A stretch of DNA of 49,250 nt, from IMG/VR virus record IMGVR_UViG_3300028835_001335, positions 1-49,250 of that record, one strand, 5' to 3'. Below, in pieces: positions 1 to 39,314 of this stretch (the first letter of the stretch is position 1; the number at the start of each line of letters is the position of its first letter). Under the pieces are notes generated by a model. That model was not told where the DNA came from. It saw only the letters and a list, made by a program, of their open reading frames with translations, and did not search any database. The DNA comes from a virus. Made by a program: the position numbers and the translations under genes.

Positions 1-144
1 CGCGTGAACTGAATAAACTTTACTTTTCATTGTATTCTCCTTTTTTTGCGCTATAGTTTACCTTTAGCCACTCCTGCGTGCCGCCGTGAGATTCGAACTC
101 ACGGCTTCCGGCAACCAGCCCAGCACGCAGCGGGGGCCGAAGCC
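1..144. repeat. Terminal direct repeat, left copy
   Basis: Bases 1-144 are identical to 49107-49250. This marks a closed or terminally redundant phage genome with 49,106 bp of unique sequence. The repeat contains the start of the leftward gene that begins at 49136 (equivalent to base 30) and a tRNA T-arm-like hairpin. From sequence alone I cannot separate a true terminal repeat from an assembly overlap of a circular or permuted molecule. Confidence 0.95.
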
Positions 145-336
145 CACTGCCTGCGCGGTTCAATGATTAGCAATGCCGGTTCCCCCTCCCCGGCCTCCTC
201 AGCGTTCCCCGTTTGCCTCACGGCTCCGGCGCAAGTTCCCCGCAGGTTCACGGCCTGCGTGCTGGATTTTACCAGCCCCCTTGCTAATCATCTTGCTGCC
301 TGCGCGTTTTGGCCAGACGCGCTAACTGGTGGGGTT
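62..336 (-). ncRNA. Structured non-coding segment with tRNA T-arm mimic
   Basis: About 300 bases without a credible gene lie between the stop of the gene at 337-552 and the start at base 30. On the minus strand the segment holds many pairings. There is a 6-bp hairpin near 303-325, a long-range 11-bp helix pairing 281-291 with 163-173, and inside it smaller hairpins such as CGCAGG/CCTGCG and GCCGG/CCGGC. A UUCG-capped stem follows at 127-150. At the 3' end GTGAG-TTCGAAT-CTCAC (90-106) is a perfect T-arm, closed by CTGCGTGC/GCACGCAG (123-130 with 74-81). No complete tRNA cloverleaf and no tmRNA tag frame could be drawn. It may be a stable phage RNA or an unusually folded intercistronic leader. 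Confidence 0.4.
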
Positions 337-1227: not shown

Positions 1228-1608
1228 CTACCTGCGCTTGCGCCGACTAGCCCATTGGCCGCCAAAGCGATAATGATAATTTCCCTCACGTTGGCGCTTA
1301 TGTTGTTCAATCTTGCGTTTCTCTCTACTCATTTCTGGCTTGGGTTTCTGCGGGGCCTCATAGCGTTGTCGTAAATCGCTATCAGGATTCCGGCGCATCT
1401 CATCGGCTACCCAGTGGCAGGACTTGCACAAGACAATGAGGTCGTCTGTTCGTTCGTGCCCAATCCGCTTATAGGTCAGGTGATGCACGGATAGCCTATC
1501 CGTTTCACCGCAACACTCGCAGCGCCATTTGGCGGCCTCTAGTTTTGCTAGTCTGTGCTGTTGCCAGGCATCGGAGTGCATATATTCACGGTATTGCCTA
1601 GAATACAT
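1228..1608 (-). CDS. HNH endonuclease-domain protein
   Basis: This 126-aa protein has a full HNH/McrA-like core. CECCG near residue 34 and CKSCH near residue 61 form the zinc-binding pairs, LSVHHLTY supplies the catalytic histidine segment, and the following loop carries a DDLIVLC strand. The C-terminus is strongly basic (repeated KR/RK), typical of DNA binding. It is the first gene after the leftward promoter at 1742-1770 and is preceded by the pseudoknot-type leader. Small phage HNH proteins act in packaging with terminase or as free nucleases. The distance from the terminase genes, which lie across a divergent promoter, leaves both options open. Confidence 0.85.
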   Translation of the reverse strand: MYSRQYREYMHSDAWQQHRLAKLEAAKWRCECCGETDRLSVHHLTYKRIGHERTDDLIVLCKSCHWVADEMRRNPDSDLRQRYEAPQKPKPEMSREKRKIEQHKRQREGNYHYRFGGQWASRRKRR

Positions 1609-1628: not shown

Positions 1629-1735
1629 GACTCCCGCAGTCCGGGCGCTTGTCTTTGTCAAGAGGCAAACGGCTTTAGACTGCGGGAGTCATGTTGGCAC
1701 AAAAAAACCGCCACTGCCATTGTGTGCCTCTTGAC
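1629..1735 (-). promoter_or_regulatory. Interleaved-repeat (pseudoknot/attenuator) leader 1
   Basis: Read on the minus strand from the predicted +1 at 1735. A1 (1735-1725) is an exact 11-nt complement of A2 (1667-1657). B1 (1690-1678) is an exact 13-nt complement of B2 (1641-1629). The order A1-B1-A2-B2 is interleaved, so both helices can coexist only as a pseudoknot. B2 is followed by GCC and four T and then the HNH gene's Shine-Dalgarno site. A GCGG plus seven-T element lies between A1 and B1. The design matches leaders at 39128-39278 and 29217-29315. Confidence 0.7.
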
Positions 1736-1741
1736 GGTTCA

Positions 1742-5714: not shown

Positions 5715-6690
5715 CCGTCGCTCCAGCATCAGCGCCGCACTGCGCACCAACCGCGAACTGGGCAAACTGTTCGCCAAGTTGGGTACAGCCGCTCACCCGC
5801 GCGGCAAGGTGCTGGTGGCGTACCGCAGCGCACGGCGGGCGCTCAGGACGGTGCTGAGACAGCGCGCGCTAGCAATAAAACAGGGAGCCTGGCTGGGGGC
5901 GCACTGGGAAGCGCGGGAAGTGATGAGCGGGCTGAAAGACAGCGTGCGGGTAGCGGCGGACACCACGCTTGACAGGGCTAGAGCCCTTGGCTGGAAGCAG
6001 GCTGTAATTGAAGGGCGTGTATGGAATATAGAGCCACAGATGCAATACGTTGATACTGTTGCAATGACCGACGCCATAGTCAGCGTGGTCGAACAGCAAG
6101 AGCGCGCCATACTGGCAACGCTGGCAACTGGTGCAGACCCGGCGCTCATCTTGGGAGGTGATACCACAGTTGGTCTATTGAGACCTGATACTGTGATACG
6201 AGAAGGCACGCACTGGCTAGCAACAGCAGCAGGGCTGGCACTGATTGGCGCACTACGACCGGCGATGCAAGCCACGGGCCGCGCGTGGGGTAAGCAAGCC
6301 ATCGCCGCAATCGACGGCGTGACGACTGAGTGTTGTCTGAGAGTGCATGGCCAGATAGTGCCAGAGGACAAGAAGTTTCACACTACCGGTTCACCGGCAT
6401 TTGCTGAATACCAAGACTGGCCCGACTTTCACTGGAATTGCCGGACGTCTGGCACGATGGTTCCGCTAGATGAGGCCGACGACGACCTGACAGAGATACT
6501 ATTGAAACAGAGTGAAGATGAGCAGGGGAAGCGGCAAGATGCACGCCTGCGTATCACTGAGATTATGGAGACGCTGGTGGGCAAGGGCACGATACCCGAT
6601 GCGCGCAGGCGCACCGATGACACCGAGGCGATGACGGAACTGCGCGAGGAGTTGCTGGCGCTACGACAAAGGGGTGGGTATTCAGGATGA
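5701..6690 (+). CDS. Minor head protein, Mu F / SPP1 gp7-like
   Basis: The C-terminal third carries the hallmark of this family: TECCLRVHGQ near residue 205, a conserved His a little later, then DFHWNCRTSGTMV near residue 245, matching the H-x-N-C-R signature of Mu gpF-like proteins. The helical N-terminal part fits portal binding. These proteins are incorporated in a few copies at or near the portal and in some phages travel with the DNA. The gene starts inside the end of the portal gene and overlaps the next gene by four bases. Confidence 0.88.
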   Translation: MRMPSRRSSISAALRTNRELGKLFAKLGTAAHPRGKVLVAYRSARRALRTVLRQRALAIKQGAWLGAHWEAREVMSGLKDSVRVAADTTLDRARALGWKQAVIEGRVWNIEPQMQYVDTVAMTDAIVSVVEQQERAILATLATGADPALILGGDTTVGLLRPDTVIREGTHWLATAAGLALIGALRPAMQATGRAWGKQAIAAIDGVTTECCLRVHGQIVPEDKKFHTTGSPAFAEYQDWPDFHWNCRTSGTMVPLDEADDDLTEILLKQSEDEQGKRQDARLRITEIMETLVGKGTIPDARRRTDDTEAMTELREELLALRQRGGYSG

Positions 6691-28387: not shown

Positions 28388-29188
28388 ATGAACACAGTGC
28401 AATTGTTAGGTAGATGGTTCCAGTCTACTATTGACAAACTGAGACCATCTCAAGTACAGTCCCAGGCAACAAGCACTATTATCGAGGAACTGTTTGCAGA
28501 TTTCAACGGCGGGTTGGTGCATCTCAAAACAGAGCACGCTGAACTGGCGGCGAACGTGCTGCGGGTTGACGGCACGCCGGGGCCAGACGTGCACTGCCTC
28601 AATGAGGCTGGCGCAGATTTTGCGCTGCTGACGCTGGAGGGCCGGGCTTACTTTGAAGTGCTAGGGCAATCTGTCATGCTCTATTCTCAGCGCGATCCGC
28701 GCTGGCGCAATCTCATCTATGCTGGAGGTCTCACCTTTGCCGCTGCCGGTTGCTATGTCACTGCCGTTGCAATGATACTCAGCCTGGCGGGCTATGGTGA
28801 TGAACCGCCGATAGTGGCCGCCAAGCTGCGCGAGGCCGGTTGTTTCTCTGGCGCACTGCTAACGCGGCCAGACGGAATACCGGCCGCCTATCCAACTATG
28901 CGCTATGACGGCGCAGTGCTATGGCACAAGGTGGCGGCGGACTTGGAGAAGTTCAAGGCTGAACTGAGCAAGGGGCCGGTGATAATTGAGGTTGACTTCG
29001 TTCCTCCCACGGCCAAATTCAACCAACACTTCGTTGTTGCCGAGCGCCTTACATCAGACGGTAACGACCTGGTCATAGCCGATCCGTGGGATGGGACACG
29101 AACGAAACTCCTAGAACGGTACGCTAAAGACAGTTGGGATTTAGGCAGGGCCTTGTATGGCATGCGACTCTTGCGAGTCAAAACTTGA
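28388..29188 (+). CDS. Endolysin, C39-like peptidase
   Basis: The 266-aa protein has an N-terminal 90-residue segment of unknown role and then a papain-fold C39-like peptidase. YSQRDPRWRNL starts at 99, the catalytic Cys 122 is in AAAGCYVTAVAM, His 214 is in NQHFVVAE, and Asp 232 is in VIADPWDG. It would cut peptides in peptidoglycan at the end of infection. The holin is close downstream, separated by the HNH gene. It has no signal peptide, which fits holin-dependent release. Its stop lies within the -35 of the next promoter. Confidence 0.85.
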   Translation: MNTVQLLGRWFQSTIDKLRPSQVQSQATSTIIEELFADFNGGLVHLKTEHAELAANVLRVDGTPGPDVHCLNEAGADFALLTLEGRAYFEVLGQSVMLYSQRDPRWRNLIYAGGLTFAAAGCYVTAVAMILSLAGYGDEPPIVAAKLREAGCFSGALLTRPDGIPAAYPTMRYDGAVLWHKVAADLEKFKAELSKGPVIIEVDFVPPTAKFNQHFVVAERLTSDGNDLVIADPWDGTRTKLLERYAKDSWDLGRALYGMRLLRVKT

Positions 29189-29212
29189 CAATAAATGAGA
29201 CCATAGTATAAT
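29185..29212 (+). promoter_or_regulatory. Promoter of the HNH insert
   Basis: TTGACA (29185-29190), a 16-nt spacer and TATAAT (29207-29212). The -35 overlaps the endolysin stop. The expected start is 29218-29219, directly at arm A1 of leader 3. It gives the HNH gene and perhaps holin an independent transcript. Confidence 0.87.
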
Positions 29213-29216
29213 ATAG

Positions 29217-29315
29217 TTGTCGGGACAACCTAGTCCAAAGCGGGTTTTTGCTTTCATGGCCCCCAAAGGTTAATGGATGTTGTCCCGACAAACAACACCG
29301 CTGCCTGCGGGGGCC
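29217..29315 (+). promoter_or_regulatory. Interleaved-repeat (pseudoknot/attenuator) leader 3
   Basis: A1 (29217-29229) is an exact 13-nt complement of A2 (29279-29291). B1 (29258-29264) is an exact 7-nt complement of B2 (29309-29315), followed by a TCTCTCTTTT tract. Order A1-B1-A2-B2 is interleaved. Between A1 and B1 a small AAAGC/GCTTT hairpin holds a GCGGG plus five-T element, comparable to that in leader 1. The design is identical to leaders 1 and 2 although no arm sequence is shared. The HNH start (GTG 29333) follows 18 bases later. Confidence 0.7.
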
Positions 29316-29332: not shown

Positions 29333-30097
29333 GTGTCTAAAAGCAGACAAAGCTATGCAGGGGCTAATAATCCCAATTGGCGTGGTGGAAGAACTATTCC
29401 GGTTAAGACAATTTGTGTGATTTGTGGTGAGGTATTTGAATCTCCTGCGCAATATGTACGCCTGACTTGCTCTCCGGTGTGCCTTGCAGAATACTGGTTA
29501 CAACACAGATCCGGTGAGAATAATCCGAATTGGCATGGAGGTAAGTGCAAGAGATTATCAGGAAGAGATACCAGATTCAAGCCAAGGTTCATTATTGAAC
29601 ATGAATGGTTAATGGAACAATATCATACGAATCATCTCAGCACACCAGAAATAGCAGAACTGATGGGCTGTTCGGGCAGTACAATTGAGAGGTGGATGAG
29701 GAAATACGATATACCATTCCGTTCATTATCAGAGGGCAAAAAGTTAAAATGGAAACAGCCAGGTTGTAAGGCTCGTAATTTCTGGGGAAGCAACAATCCG
29801 AATTGGCATGGAGGAAAGTCTTTTGAGCCCTACCCGGCAATCTTCAACGCATCTTTCAAGCGCAAAATAAGACAACGCGATGAGTACAAGTGTATTATTT
29901 GCAAGAGATACGGTATATATGTTCATCATATAGACTATGACAAGCAGAATACCATACCAGAGAATTGTATCACGCTATGCACAAGTTGCCATAGTGTTAC
30001 TAATTTTAATCGTGAATATTGGGAGATGATATTGATGGAATTACTGAAAGCGCACCTCGACCCAGATACCGTAGACGCCTCGCTGAGGATAGGATAA
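29333..30097 (+). CDS. HNH homing-type endonuclease with NUMOD3-like motifs
   Basis: I chose GTG 29333 because GGAG ends 5 nt before it and leader 3 fills the sequence upstream. An ATG at 29273 would translate through the leader. The 254-aa protein has three NNPNW-GG motifs (NUMOD3-like). A CVICG...CSPVC zinc pair lies between the first and second. An HTH follows (STPEIAELMGCSGSTIERWM), then the HNH domain CIICKRYGIYVHHIDYD with CTSCH. Composition is more AT-rich than the neighbours, indicating transfer. It interrupts the lysis cassette. Confidence 0.87.
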   Translation: MSKSRQSYAGANNPNWRGGRTIPVKTICVICGEVFESPAQYVRLTCSPVCLAEYWLQHRSGENNPNWHGGKCKRLSGRDTRFKPRFIIEHEWLMEQYHTNHLSTPEIAELMGCSGSTIERWMRKYDIPFRSLSEGKKLKWKQPGCKARNFWGSNNPNWHGGKSFEPYPAIFNASFKRKIRQRDEYKCIICKRYGIYVHHIDYDKQNTIPENCITLCTSCHSVTNFNREYWEMILMELLKAHLDPDTVDASLRIG

Positions 30098-37727: not shown

Positions 37728-38273
37728 TCGCAACTTATCGGCGCACTCACTCGTCGCGGCCTCAATTGCCCGATGCCGTTCGCCGCCCACCAACTCCAGC
37801 GCCTCACGCACTGCTGGCAGTATCCTAAACTGAGCCCGCTCACGCTTCGCCAGCGTCTCGTATGCCTGCACGAACCGCGCCCGATCCGCTACGGCGTTCG
37901 TGCTCATACACAACTCACGCCACCCGCCTACGCCGTCGACCGTGCGCCTTATCAGCGGATGACTGAATTCTGGCAAGCGCGAATGGCCGTGAGTGCCGAA
38001 TCGCTTGGTGACCTCTGCCCAGGCGTCCCAGGCAGTTGGGACATCGGACTGTCGCTCTACCAGGTCGAAGGCGCACTGGCGCACCTCACCAGGTGCAGGT
38101 AGGAACGGCCTGTTCTCACTGGCAATCTGGAGGACGGCAGCTTTAAGCAAGTTGGGATCCAGGTCTCCCAGTATGGCGTACCAGGTTCTCACCACGCGCG
38201 GCTCCAGCGTGTAGCGCGGGTACGCATCTTCCAGGACGGCCAGCGCCTTGCCAAATTCTAGTTCATCCATCAT
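37710..38273 (-). CDS. Helicase-loader-like replication protein (G39P type)
   Basis: The 187-aa protein has the pattern of G39P-like loaders. Near the N-terminus are RVVRTWYAILGDLDPNLLK, AAVLQIASENRPFLPAPGE and then VRQCAFDL, with the typical W...L.DL and PFLPAPGE blocks. The rest is helical and charged. It overlaps the replisome organiser by four bases (ATGA), the usual partnership for loading replicative helicase at a phage origin. It ends in ETRRP within the direct repeat. Confidence 0.75.
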   Translation of the reverse strand: MMDELEFGKALAVLEDAYPRYTLEPRVVRTWYAILGDLDPNLLKAAVLQIASENRPFLPAPGEVRQCAFDLVERQSDVPTAWDAWAEVTKRFGTHGHSRLPEFSHPLIRRTVDGVGGWRELCMSTNAVADRARFVQAYETLAKRERAQFRILPAVREALELVGGERHRAIEAATSECADKLRETRRP

Positions 38274-39109
38274 GCTTGCACTCCTTCATCTGCCAGCCAC
38301 TGGCGGATACCGGCGTGAGGCTCTAGGCCGTTGGCTTTTTGTTGTCCTTTCGTCACCGGGATTTCCCGCTTCTCGTAGTAGGCCAGCATGTTTTTGACGT
38401 TGCCGGGATTCCAGCCCAGGCCGATGTATGTCAATACGATCTGGCCCCACAACTCCAGGTCGACGGGCTTTTCACCGACGGCATCAGTGATCTTTGAGTA
38501 CCACGCCTTGGGCGGATAGCGATGTGCATTCTCTCGGAACACCTTCACGGCCTTCGGAGTCTTGGGCTTTGGTGTTTTGGCCTTGCGTTTCGGCTTGCGC
38601 GGGTGGGCGTTAGCCGCCGGAGGCGTCTCCTCTTTTGGGAAAGGGGATTCGGACCGGGACCGGGACCGGGACCGGGACCGGGAGTTCGTTTTTGCTTCCG
38701 TCTTTGCTTCCTTTTTGCTTGGTGTTTGCTTCCCGTTTGCTTCCTCTTCCTCTTCGGCTTGCTTGCGCCTTGCTTCTCCAGACCGTAGGCCACCCTCGCG
38801 CCCAGCCTCAGCGCGGGCCTGCCTGGTGGCTTTCACCCTTGCGCGGCTGGGATTGTAGTCCAGATAGTCGTGTACCTGATAGCCGCCATCTCTGCGCTCC
38901 CAAAGTCCAACGGCGACTAGCCTCTCCGCCACTTTTCCTGGATTGTCAATGTCGATCAACCGCTGCACCTGTACCGCTGAGATAAATCCATCTGTCAGGT
39001 GGCGGCTACAGTATGACAGGCCGCACACGAAAAGCGCGATACCCAGCGGGCCGGCGGCGACTACTTTGGGATGGTCGTAGAACTGGTCGTCGATTTTAGT
39101 CCAGGTCAT
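38270..39109 (-). CDS. Replisome organiser-like protein
   Basis: The 279-aa protein opens with WTKIDDQFYDHPKVVAAG and a winged-helix-like region (LTDGFISAVQVQRLIDIDN, VAVGLWERRDGGYQVHDYLD), as in phage replisome organisers and DnaD-like initiators. A long basic linker follows at about 90-175 with an SR dipeptide run encoded by a hexanucleotide repeat. Residues 180-279 form a second helical domain (YSKITDAVGEKPVDLELWG, NPGNVKNMLAYYEKRE). It would bind the origin and recruit the loader encoded next. Confidence 0.8.
   Translation of the reverse strand: MTWTKIDDQFYDHPKVVAAGPLGIALFVCGLSYCSRHLTDGFISAVQVQRLIDIDNPGKVAERLVAVGLWERRDGGYQVHDYLDYNPSRARVKATRQARAEAGREGGLRSGEARRKQAEEEEEANGKQTPSKKEAKTEAKTNSRSRSRSRSRSESPFPKEETPPAANAHPRKPKRKAKTPKPKTPKAVKVFRENAHRYPPKAWYSKITDAVGEKPVDLELWGQIVLTYIGLGWNPGNVKNMLAYYEKREIPVTKGQQKANGLEPHAGIRQWLADEGVQA
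38652..38683. repeat. Hexanucleotide tandem repeat coding SR dipeptides
   Basis: About five copies of a GGACCG unit within the replication gene encode alternating Ser-Arg in the linker. Slippage here changes linker length by two residues per unit without frameshift. Confidence 0.8.
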
Positions 39110-39127: not shown

Positions 39128-39278
39128 AAAGCCCCACGCTGTTCGTTGGCCTACTGATTTGAGCAATCTAGCAGGGAGTCCAACAGCGTGGGGCTTTACG
39201 CCACAAATATTTGACGCGACTTTGTAAGTGTCCTTGTGTGCCAAAACAAAAACTCCCTTGCTCGCGATTGCTCAAATC
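39128..39278 (-). promoter_or_regulatory. Interleaved-repeat (pseudoknot/attenuator) leader 2
   Basis: Read on the minus strand from +1 near 39280. A1 (39278-39266) is an exact 13-nt complement of A2 (39168-39156). B1 (39197-39182) is an exact 16-nt complement of B2 (39143-39128), and B2 is followed by TTTTTGCTTT, a textbook terminator tail. The order A1-B1-A2-B2 is interleaved. A2 lies in the loop of the terminator, so A1-A2 pairing would form a pseudoknot or compete with termination. The replication genes start at 39109 directly after it. Confidence 0.75.
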
Positions 39279-39286
39279 ACACTCAT

Positions 39287-39314
39287 ATTCTACACTATTC
39301 CCTGTTTTTGTCAA
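39287..39314 (-). promoter_or_regulatory. Leftward promoter of the replication operon
   Basis: TTGACA (39314-39309), a 16-nt spacer and TAGAAT (39292-39287) on the minus strand. The -35 overlaps the stop of the upstream gene. Start expected near 39280, two bases before arm A1 of leader 2. Confidence 0.85.

Follow-up and report, generated by a model that had tools for sequence, protein, structure and literature searches.

The window analysed here is a virus record of 49,250 bases; among its genes are those for a terminase, a portal protein, a RecT-like protein and a methylase. Three of its promoters are followed by leaders in which the arms of two helices, A and B, are interleaved. Leader 1 (minus strand) starts from a promoter that matches the consensus perfectly (TTGACA-17-TATAAT, 1742-1770). 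The first base of A1 (GTCAAGAGGCA, 1725-1735) lies 7 nt past the -10 box, which is the predicted +1 and hence the predicted 5' end of the RNA. A1 is followed by B1 (GACTCCCGCAGTC, 1678-1690), A2 (TGCCTCTTGAC, 1657-1667) and B2 (GACTGCGGGAGTC, 1629-1641). A1 and A2 are complementary over 11 nt and B1 and B2 over 13 nt, all by Watson-Crick pairs, so that the arms are exactly those of the initial annotation; B1 and B2 form the 5' and 3' arms of a terminator-like hairpin, and A2 is within its loop. A U tract (UUUU, 1622-1625) and a Shine-Dalgarno sequence (GGAG, 1616-1619) lie 3' of B2, ahead of a gene for an HNH endonuclease of 126 aa (1228-1608, minus strand). The GGAG is outside both the A and B helices. 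This terminator is weaker than that of leader 3, as its U tract is short and begins about 3 nt past B2.

In the minimum free energy (MFE) fold of leader 1, the 5' half of A1 is taken by an alternative hairpin (GAACCGUCA/UGGCGGUUU, 1705-1738, minus strand), which is followed by more U residues and is a possible second, earlier terminator. A short form of this hairpin (GGCGG/CCGUC) and a U6 tract are retained in the orthologous leader L123. It was considered as a general second terminator and rejected, being present in leader 1 and missing from most other leaders.

The two other leaders have the same order of arms. Leader 2 (plus strand) follows a TTGACA-16-TATAAT promoter (29185-29212, the -10 box ending at 29212) and consists of A1 (TTGTCGGGACAAC, 29217-29229), B1 (GGCCCCC, 29258-29264), A2 (29279-29291) and B2 (GGGGGCC, 29309-29315, then TCTCTTTTGGAG), which gives an A helix of 13 bp and a B helix of 7 bp; it precedes a gene for an HNH/HTH homing-type nuclease (29333-30097, plus strand). 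Leader 3 (minus strand) follows a TTGACA-16-TAGAAT promoter (39287-39314, the -10 box ending at 39287) and consists of A1 (TGATTTGAGCAATC, 39266-39279), B1 (AAAGCCCCACGCTGTT, 39182-39197), A2 (39155-39168) and B2 (39128-39143, continuing into TTTTTGCTTTG), with helices of 14 bp (A) and 16 bp (B); it precedes a replication initiation gene (38270-39109, minus strand). The genes behind the three leaders had been called unrelated, which is not the case for leaders 1 and 2, since both precede HNH-type nucleases. It was observed that the TGA of the preceding gene is inside the TTGACA of the leader promoter at 29185 and at 39311; these promoter-leader modules thus lie flush against the previous gene. 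A further structured region is present at 50-330 (minus strand). It is GC-rich and includes a tRNA-like T arm (GUGAG UUCGAAU CUCAC), and its 120-307 segment is 90% identical in L051. This region gave no tRNA or Rfam match and a fold z of -2.3; it is possibly a new structured RNA or an interrupted tRNA-like element.

The interleaved arrangement exceeds what chance produces. With the exact arm lengths summed as a score, leaders 1, 2 and 3 reached 24, 20 and 30, compared with at most 14 for all other promoter-like sites in the window, and none of 300 shuffles matched these values, in agreement with the three promoters first reported. A strict form of the design was then defined as an A arm of at least 10 nt that starts at most 13 nt from the -10 box, at least 8 B pairs around A2 and a U-rich end. 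It was present at 10 of the 464 non-redundant promoter-like sites in all DNA fetched, and at none in 5 x 464 shuffled sequences.

About 14 further leaders of this design were found in related and other phage contigs (L123, L049/L068, L070, L135, L134, L027, L152, two in L198, L224, L133, L003, L004 and L050/L129/L133). In their common layout, a promoter is followed by A1, which lies close to the 5' end or directly at it, then by the terminator hairpin B, whose loop contains A2, and finally by a U-rich tract and a start codon. In the tabulated members the Shine-Dalgarno sequence and the start codon usually come within tens of bases past the U-rich tract, and in L134 only is the Shine-Dalgarno inside B2. 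Most of the downstream genes encode HNH/NUMOD4 homing nucleases; others encode replication initiators and one an MT-A70 methyltransferase. As the loci were gathered through the homing-nuclease genes behind the leaders and through searches for relatives, the sample is not neutral and this gene preference is partly built in.

One case comes from a relative phage (L123/L129) whose terminase is 88% identical. There the ortholog of leader 1 (L123), with identical A arms and with TTTTATGGAG retained 3' of B2, lies before the MT-A70 methyltransferase gene, which indicates that the module is mobile irrespective of the gene that it would control. The design precedes NUMOD4/HNH_3 homing nucleases in L049/L068/L069, L070, L135, L152 and L134. 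In L027 the gene behind it encodes an HNH-type nuclease, and L198 carries two tandem copies. In L224 it precedes a replisome organiser gene, which matches the replication initiation gene of leader 3. L050, L129 and L133 have syntenic replication-operon leaders in which a 5' segment is conserved, A is short (GTAGCG/CGCTAC), and B is long and carries a U tail. L003 and L004 encode HNH homologs of the leader 1 gene (66-76% identity), and their leaders have kept a very strong terminator B, with different arms and a short A. That the architecture and not the sequence is conserved, as first proposed, is borne out by this recurrence. The accompanying statement that all arms differ holds between the three leaders of the window, and fails for orthologous leaders elsewhere, which keep part of the sequence.

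The element is less general than had been suggested. A1 lies tens of bases past +1 in L003, L004, L133 and the L050/L129/L133 replication-operon leaders, the A helix has merely 6-9 bp in some members, and no clear member lay upstream of ten NUMOD4/HNH loci taken from phage records in INPHARED (L231 was borderline). A megablast search of INPHARED phages with the window region gave no match, and the search for the terminase in genomes, made to find the host, gave a weak match at best.

Several observations were made alongside this survey. L003 (2866-2905), L004 (2866 region) and L133 (5849-5896) share a ACTTAAAAA(CTCA)ATGGCTYT motif upstream of A1; their short ORFs read MALAGQLS, MALAGQFNL and MALTRAQ, and L004 and L133 have extra 5' hairpins; judging from these features, the three would form a separate leader sub-type. 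Six loci were recovered in a search with a 17-nt A2 string. Two were known leaders (L146, which is the L123 contig, and L147, which is the contig of L002) and the remaining four were not leaders. Among the latter was L145, where a promoter-like site (GCCTCTTGACAAATG...TATAAT, 5970-6020) shares the -35 neighbourhood, with about 22 bases in common with the A2 region of L123; this likeness suggests that a -35 region may have given rise to A2. By eye, A1 appears complementary to the -35 box in leaders 1 and 2, L049 and L070, and not in some others; such complementarity might trap A1 in read-through transcripts. In L208 (about 1880-2000), a promoter that looks to be of Bacteroidetes type (TATATTTG) precedes a gene of NUMOD4 type, and between the two lie a comparable short A (AAACAAGGA, at +1) and a B (AGCGTTTA).

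Covariation in homologous leaders had been proposed as a check on the design, and compensatory changes were found in the comparisons of leader 1 with L123, of L049 with L070, and of L049, L070 and L152. Between leader 1 and L123, 11 of 11 A pairs and 13 of 13 B pairs are retained; two of the B pairs, both double changes involving B1, have changed on both sides and none is broken. Between L049 and L070, with 80% identity between their proteins, A pairing survives changes in both arms, including A-U to G-C, and A extends to 19 bp with one G·U, while the B arms are wholly new and have retained their complementarity. When L152 is included, both-sided changes are seen at several A pairs. Orthologous leaders thus keep both A and B through compensatory changes. 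In the NUMOD4 group a third interleaved helix, C, may also be present, with C1 after A1 and C2 after A2: the candidates are ATTTGC/GCAAAT in L049 (13273-13148), ACTTGC/GCAAGT in L070 (2382-2500), AACTTGC/GCAAGTT in L152 (1877-2000) and TTGAGTT/AACTCAA in L135 (13511-13630). These are suggestive of a real helix, in an alignment too uncertain for a claim.

The deviations from Watson-Crick pairing tell on which strand the element is selected. Seventeen leaders were tabulated and their helices extended with equal scores for G·U and A·C. Inside the helices, the deviations comprised 21 G·U and 6 A·C (binomial p = 0.003), and 19 G·U and 3 A·C in the B helices alone. As an A·C in the sense RNA would be a G·U in the antisense RNA, this excess designates the sense RNA as the selected form, and argues strongly for an RNA-level element of the sense strand. 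The A helices contain 2 G·U in about 230 positions; either their pairing needs to be perfect and fast, or this is a point in favour of paired DNA sites.

Paired DNA sites would be expected if A1 and A2 were binding sites for the nuclease or for a repressor, with A1 overlapping the start site, in an autorepression of the I-TevI kind, for which there is precedent (PMC2988022). The location of A1 at +1 and a TCACAC in A1 common to the relatives L049, L070 and L152 would also fit such operators. However, the excess of repeats of the +1 region is restricted to inverted copies (15 observed versus 2-3 in shuffles), direct copies being at the shuffled level (6 versus 2-6), and A2 is in the terminator loop in every tabulated leader that has an A. 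In addition, the A of leader 1 is unchanged before the unrelated methyltransferase gene, and the G·U bias of B and the ordered energies of A and B are features of RNA. We consider DNA operators highly unlikely.

Folding energies were computed for successive lengths of the transcript. A1 is predicted to be about 30-75% unpaired before A2 appears. With the RNA ending at A2, the A fold is predicted to be the best one in most leaders; in 15 of 16 it either has the MFE or comes to about 0.7 kcal/mol of it or less (3.2 kcal/mol in L133). Once B2 is complete, the B fold is equal or better in most leaders: where A1 is near +1 the advantage of B is 0 to about 9 kcal/mol, except in L027, which favours A, and in leaders of the L003/L004/L133 type B is better by 13-23 kcal/mol. 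The energies of A and B in the finished leader are level within 0.4 kcal/mol in L049 (-37.8/-37.4), L070 (-35.5/-35.5) and L135 (-35.8/-35.5 kcal/mol). By computation, therefore, fold A precedes B and competes with it, and the competition between an antiterminator and a terminator that the initial annotation had raised is energetically plausible. The tabulated members and the leaders of the window all have a terminator hairpin with a U tract between promoter and gene. In leaders 1-3 and in most members A2 occupies the loop of B and lies outside its arms, so the terminator stem is not shared; any obstruction of B by A would then be topological or kinetic.

As A is predicted to form first and B later, A was taken as the antiterminator and B as the terminator; since B is followed by a U-rich tract and then by a start codon, it is probably an attenuating terminator. 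The leaders are likely to attenuate. At a probability of about two in three, our main reading is that they are co-transcriptional attenuators that set the output of the downstream gene; the terminating role of B, the antiterminating role of A and a signal that chooses between them are all three inferred. RNA polymerase would initiate at the strong promoter, so that the RNA begins with A1 or shortly upstream of it. B1 would be transcribed second, and A2 would then pair immediately with A1 and trap B1 in the loop of A. On emerging, B2 would attempt to close hairpin B, which with its U-rich tract would be an intrinsic terminator. In the ON state A would persist, B would be hindered and transcription would enter the gene; in the OFF state A1 would be unavailable, or B would displace A in time, and the transcript would end about 100-170 nt from its start. 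In a few leaders B or A2 may also mask the Shine-Dalgarno sequence. Most likely, the deciding signal is that A1 or A2 becomes occupied, either by terminated RNA of the leader itself or by a protein of the phage or the host. Several points argue against attenuation: the near absence of G·U from A, which fits paired DNA sites too, the weak A or distant A1 of some members, the short U tract of leader 1, and the INPHARED NUMOD4/HNH loci with no clear case.

The same arms could form a true H-type pseudoknot, in which A and B would coexist as a stable 5' structure that yields a small RNA or protects the mRNA, with no switch. A1-B1-A2-B2 is the order of an H-type pseudoknot; the linkers, about 9-30 nt long and ranging from borderline to ample, would make coexistence sterically possible in most leaders. 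However, the knot would be strained in L070 (where A has 19 bp and the linkers measure about 0 and 8 nt), the near-equal energies of A and B and the short A2-B2 distances resemble competition, and a U tract and a start codon follow B. A structure of this kind with no switch is distinctly unlikely. In another scheme, a ribosome on a short ORF would choose between A and B. Leader 1 contains an ATG...TGA ORF of 20 codons, with AAGAGG within A1, and ACTTAAAAA..ATGGCT and the short MAL... ORFs are common to L003, L004 and L133. However, A1 at +1 leaves no space for an upstream ORF, and the MAL ORFs have no Shine-Dalgarno sequence. The leader 1 peptide was rejected, as its start codon is absent from the ortholog L123. 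Leader-peptide attenuation is thus extremely unlikely.

An autogenous feedback in trans, like that of P4 CI or P1 C4, could be the trigger of the attenuators, and the two readings are not exclusive. The terminated leader RNA would display A2 in the loop of B together with a free A1, and would pair with nascent A1 or A2; it would block the cis A helix in the next transcript and favour the terminator. The gene would then be expressed only in cells that lack the RNA, for example just after entry. The nearly perfect Watson-Crick pairing of A would suit such a role, homing nucleases and replication initiators are genes that a phage would want self-limited, and the P4 CI RNA sets a precedent with replication genes and termination via seqA/seqC pairing (PMC4825925). 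The A arms differ between leaders of one genome, which would be expected from a private trans-acting RNA and from free drift alike. Conversely, a switch acting only in cis would yield the same sequences, A1 and A2 within one RNA would compete with pairing in trans, and no known immunity RNA was matched in Rfam. Feedback in trans is possible, though rather unlikely. It is rather unlikely that the leaders represent, at its widest, a sequence-free RNA switch widespread in phages, in which the 5' end pairs with the terminator loop and the terminated RNA feeds back, so as to give each gene a private self-limiting circuit.

From their sequences, the leaders of the preferred attenuator reading look like an undescribed type of on/off RNA switch, whose shape is kept while its letters change. 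Free-standing homing nuclease genes need to be expressed without harm to the carrier phage, and to our knowledge little is known of how this is achieved outside the T4 group. An RNA design defined by architecture alone, placed before homing nucleases and replication initiators, would explain part of such control and would escape sequence-based RNA searches such as Rfam. These compact promoter-leader modules, with their self-specific arms, are directly testable.

Rfam gave no match at gathering score, and a permissive search with leader 1 gave chance matches only (E about 1). In the literature searched, mostly without subscription papers, no recurrent phage element was described in which a 5' end pairs with the loop of a terminator, which is weak evidence. 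In the antisense attenuators of pT181 and pIP501, an antiterminator pairs with the terminator stem under the control of a countertranscript. The leaders described here likewise have a putative terminator, in some cases before a replication gene, an alternative upstream pairing and element-specific pairing; they differ in that, for the majority of leaders, A and the arms of B have no bases in common. For a countertranscript facing leader 1, no promoter-like site was found when up to 2 mismatches were allowed. Pseudoknotted transcriptional riboswitches such as the fluoride riboswitch similarly oppose an early long-range pairing to a later terminator (PMC11077080). In contrast with them, the leaders have no conserved aptamer, their arms change freely and no ligand is implied.

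Homing nucleases of the T4 type are preceded by hairpins that hide the ribosome site: in I-TevI and MobE the site is masked on long transcripts and a late start drops the 5' arm of the hairpin, and I-TevI in addition represses its own late promoter through an operator (PMC2988022). As in these systems, an RNA structure lies ahead of a homing nuclease gene, with a promoter placed relative to it. In contrast, the promoter here makes the 5' arm the first segment transcribed, the structure is a putative terminator, and the Shine-Dalgarno sequence of leader 1 is not hidden.

The C4 antisense RNA of P1 and P7 is an immunity RNA of the same kind as the CI RNA of P4. In P4, the CI RNA causes premature termination of the replication genes by pairing with seqA and seqC (PMC4825925). 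A phage leader with self-complementary segments, control by premature termination (as proposed for our leaders) and replication genes as the targets in P4 are the points in common, so that the P4 immunity analogy first drawn was fair, with no family match in Rfam to go with it. Unlike here, a processed RNA acts in trans on seqA and seqC in the P4 CI/C4 systems, whereas in our leaders the complementary segment is in the putative terminator's own loop and the RNA starts with A1. The prophage Gifsy-1 encodes IsrK, a leader RNA that ends at a terminator and acts on its own read-through transcript (PMC4825925). It resembles the present leaders, as they are proposed to work, in its prophage promoter, terminator-ended small RNA, read-through mRNA and self-interaction; it differs in that it acts in trans to switch on translation of the read-through mRNA, and pairing between A1 and a terminator loop is not part of its described design. 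Of the known systems, P4 CI and IsrK are closest in spirit to the leaders described here.
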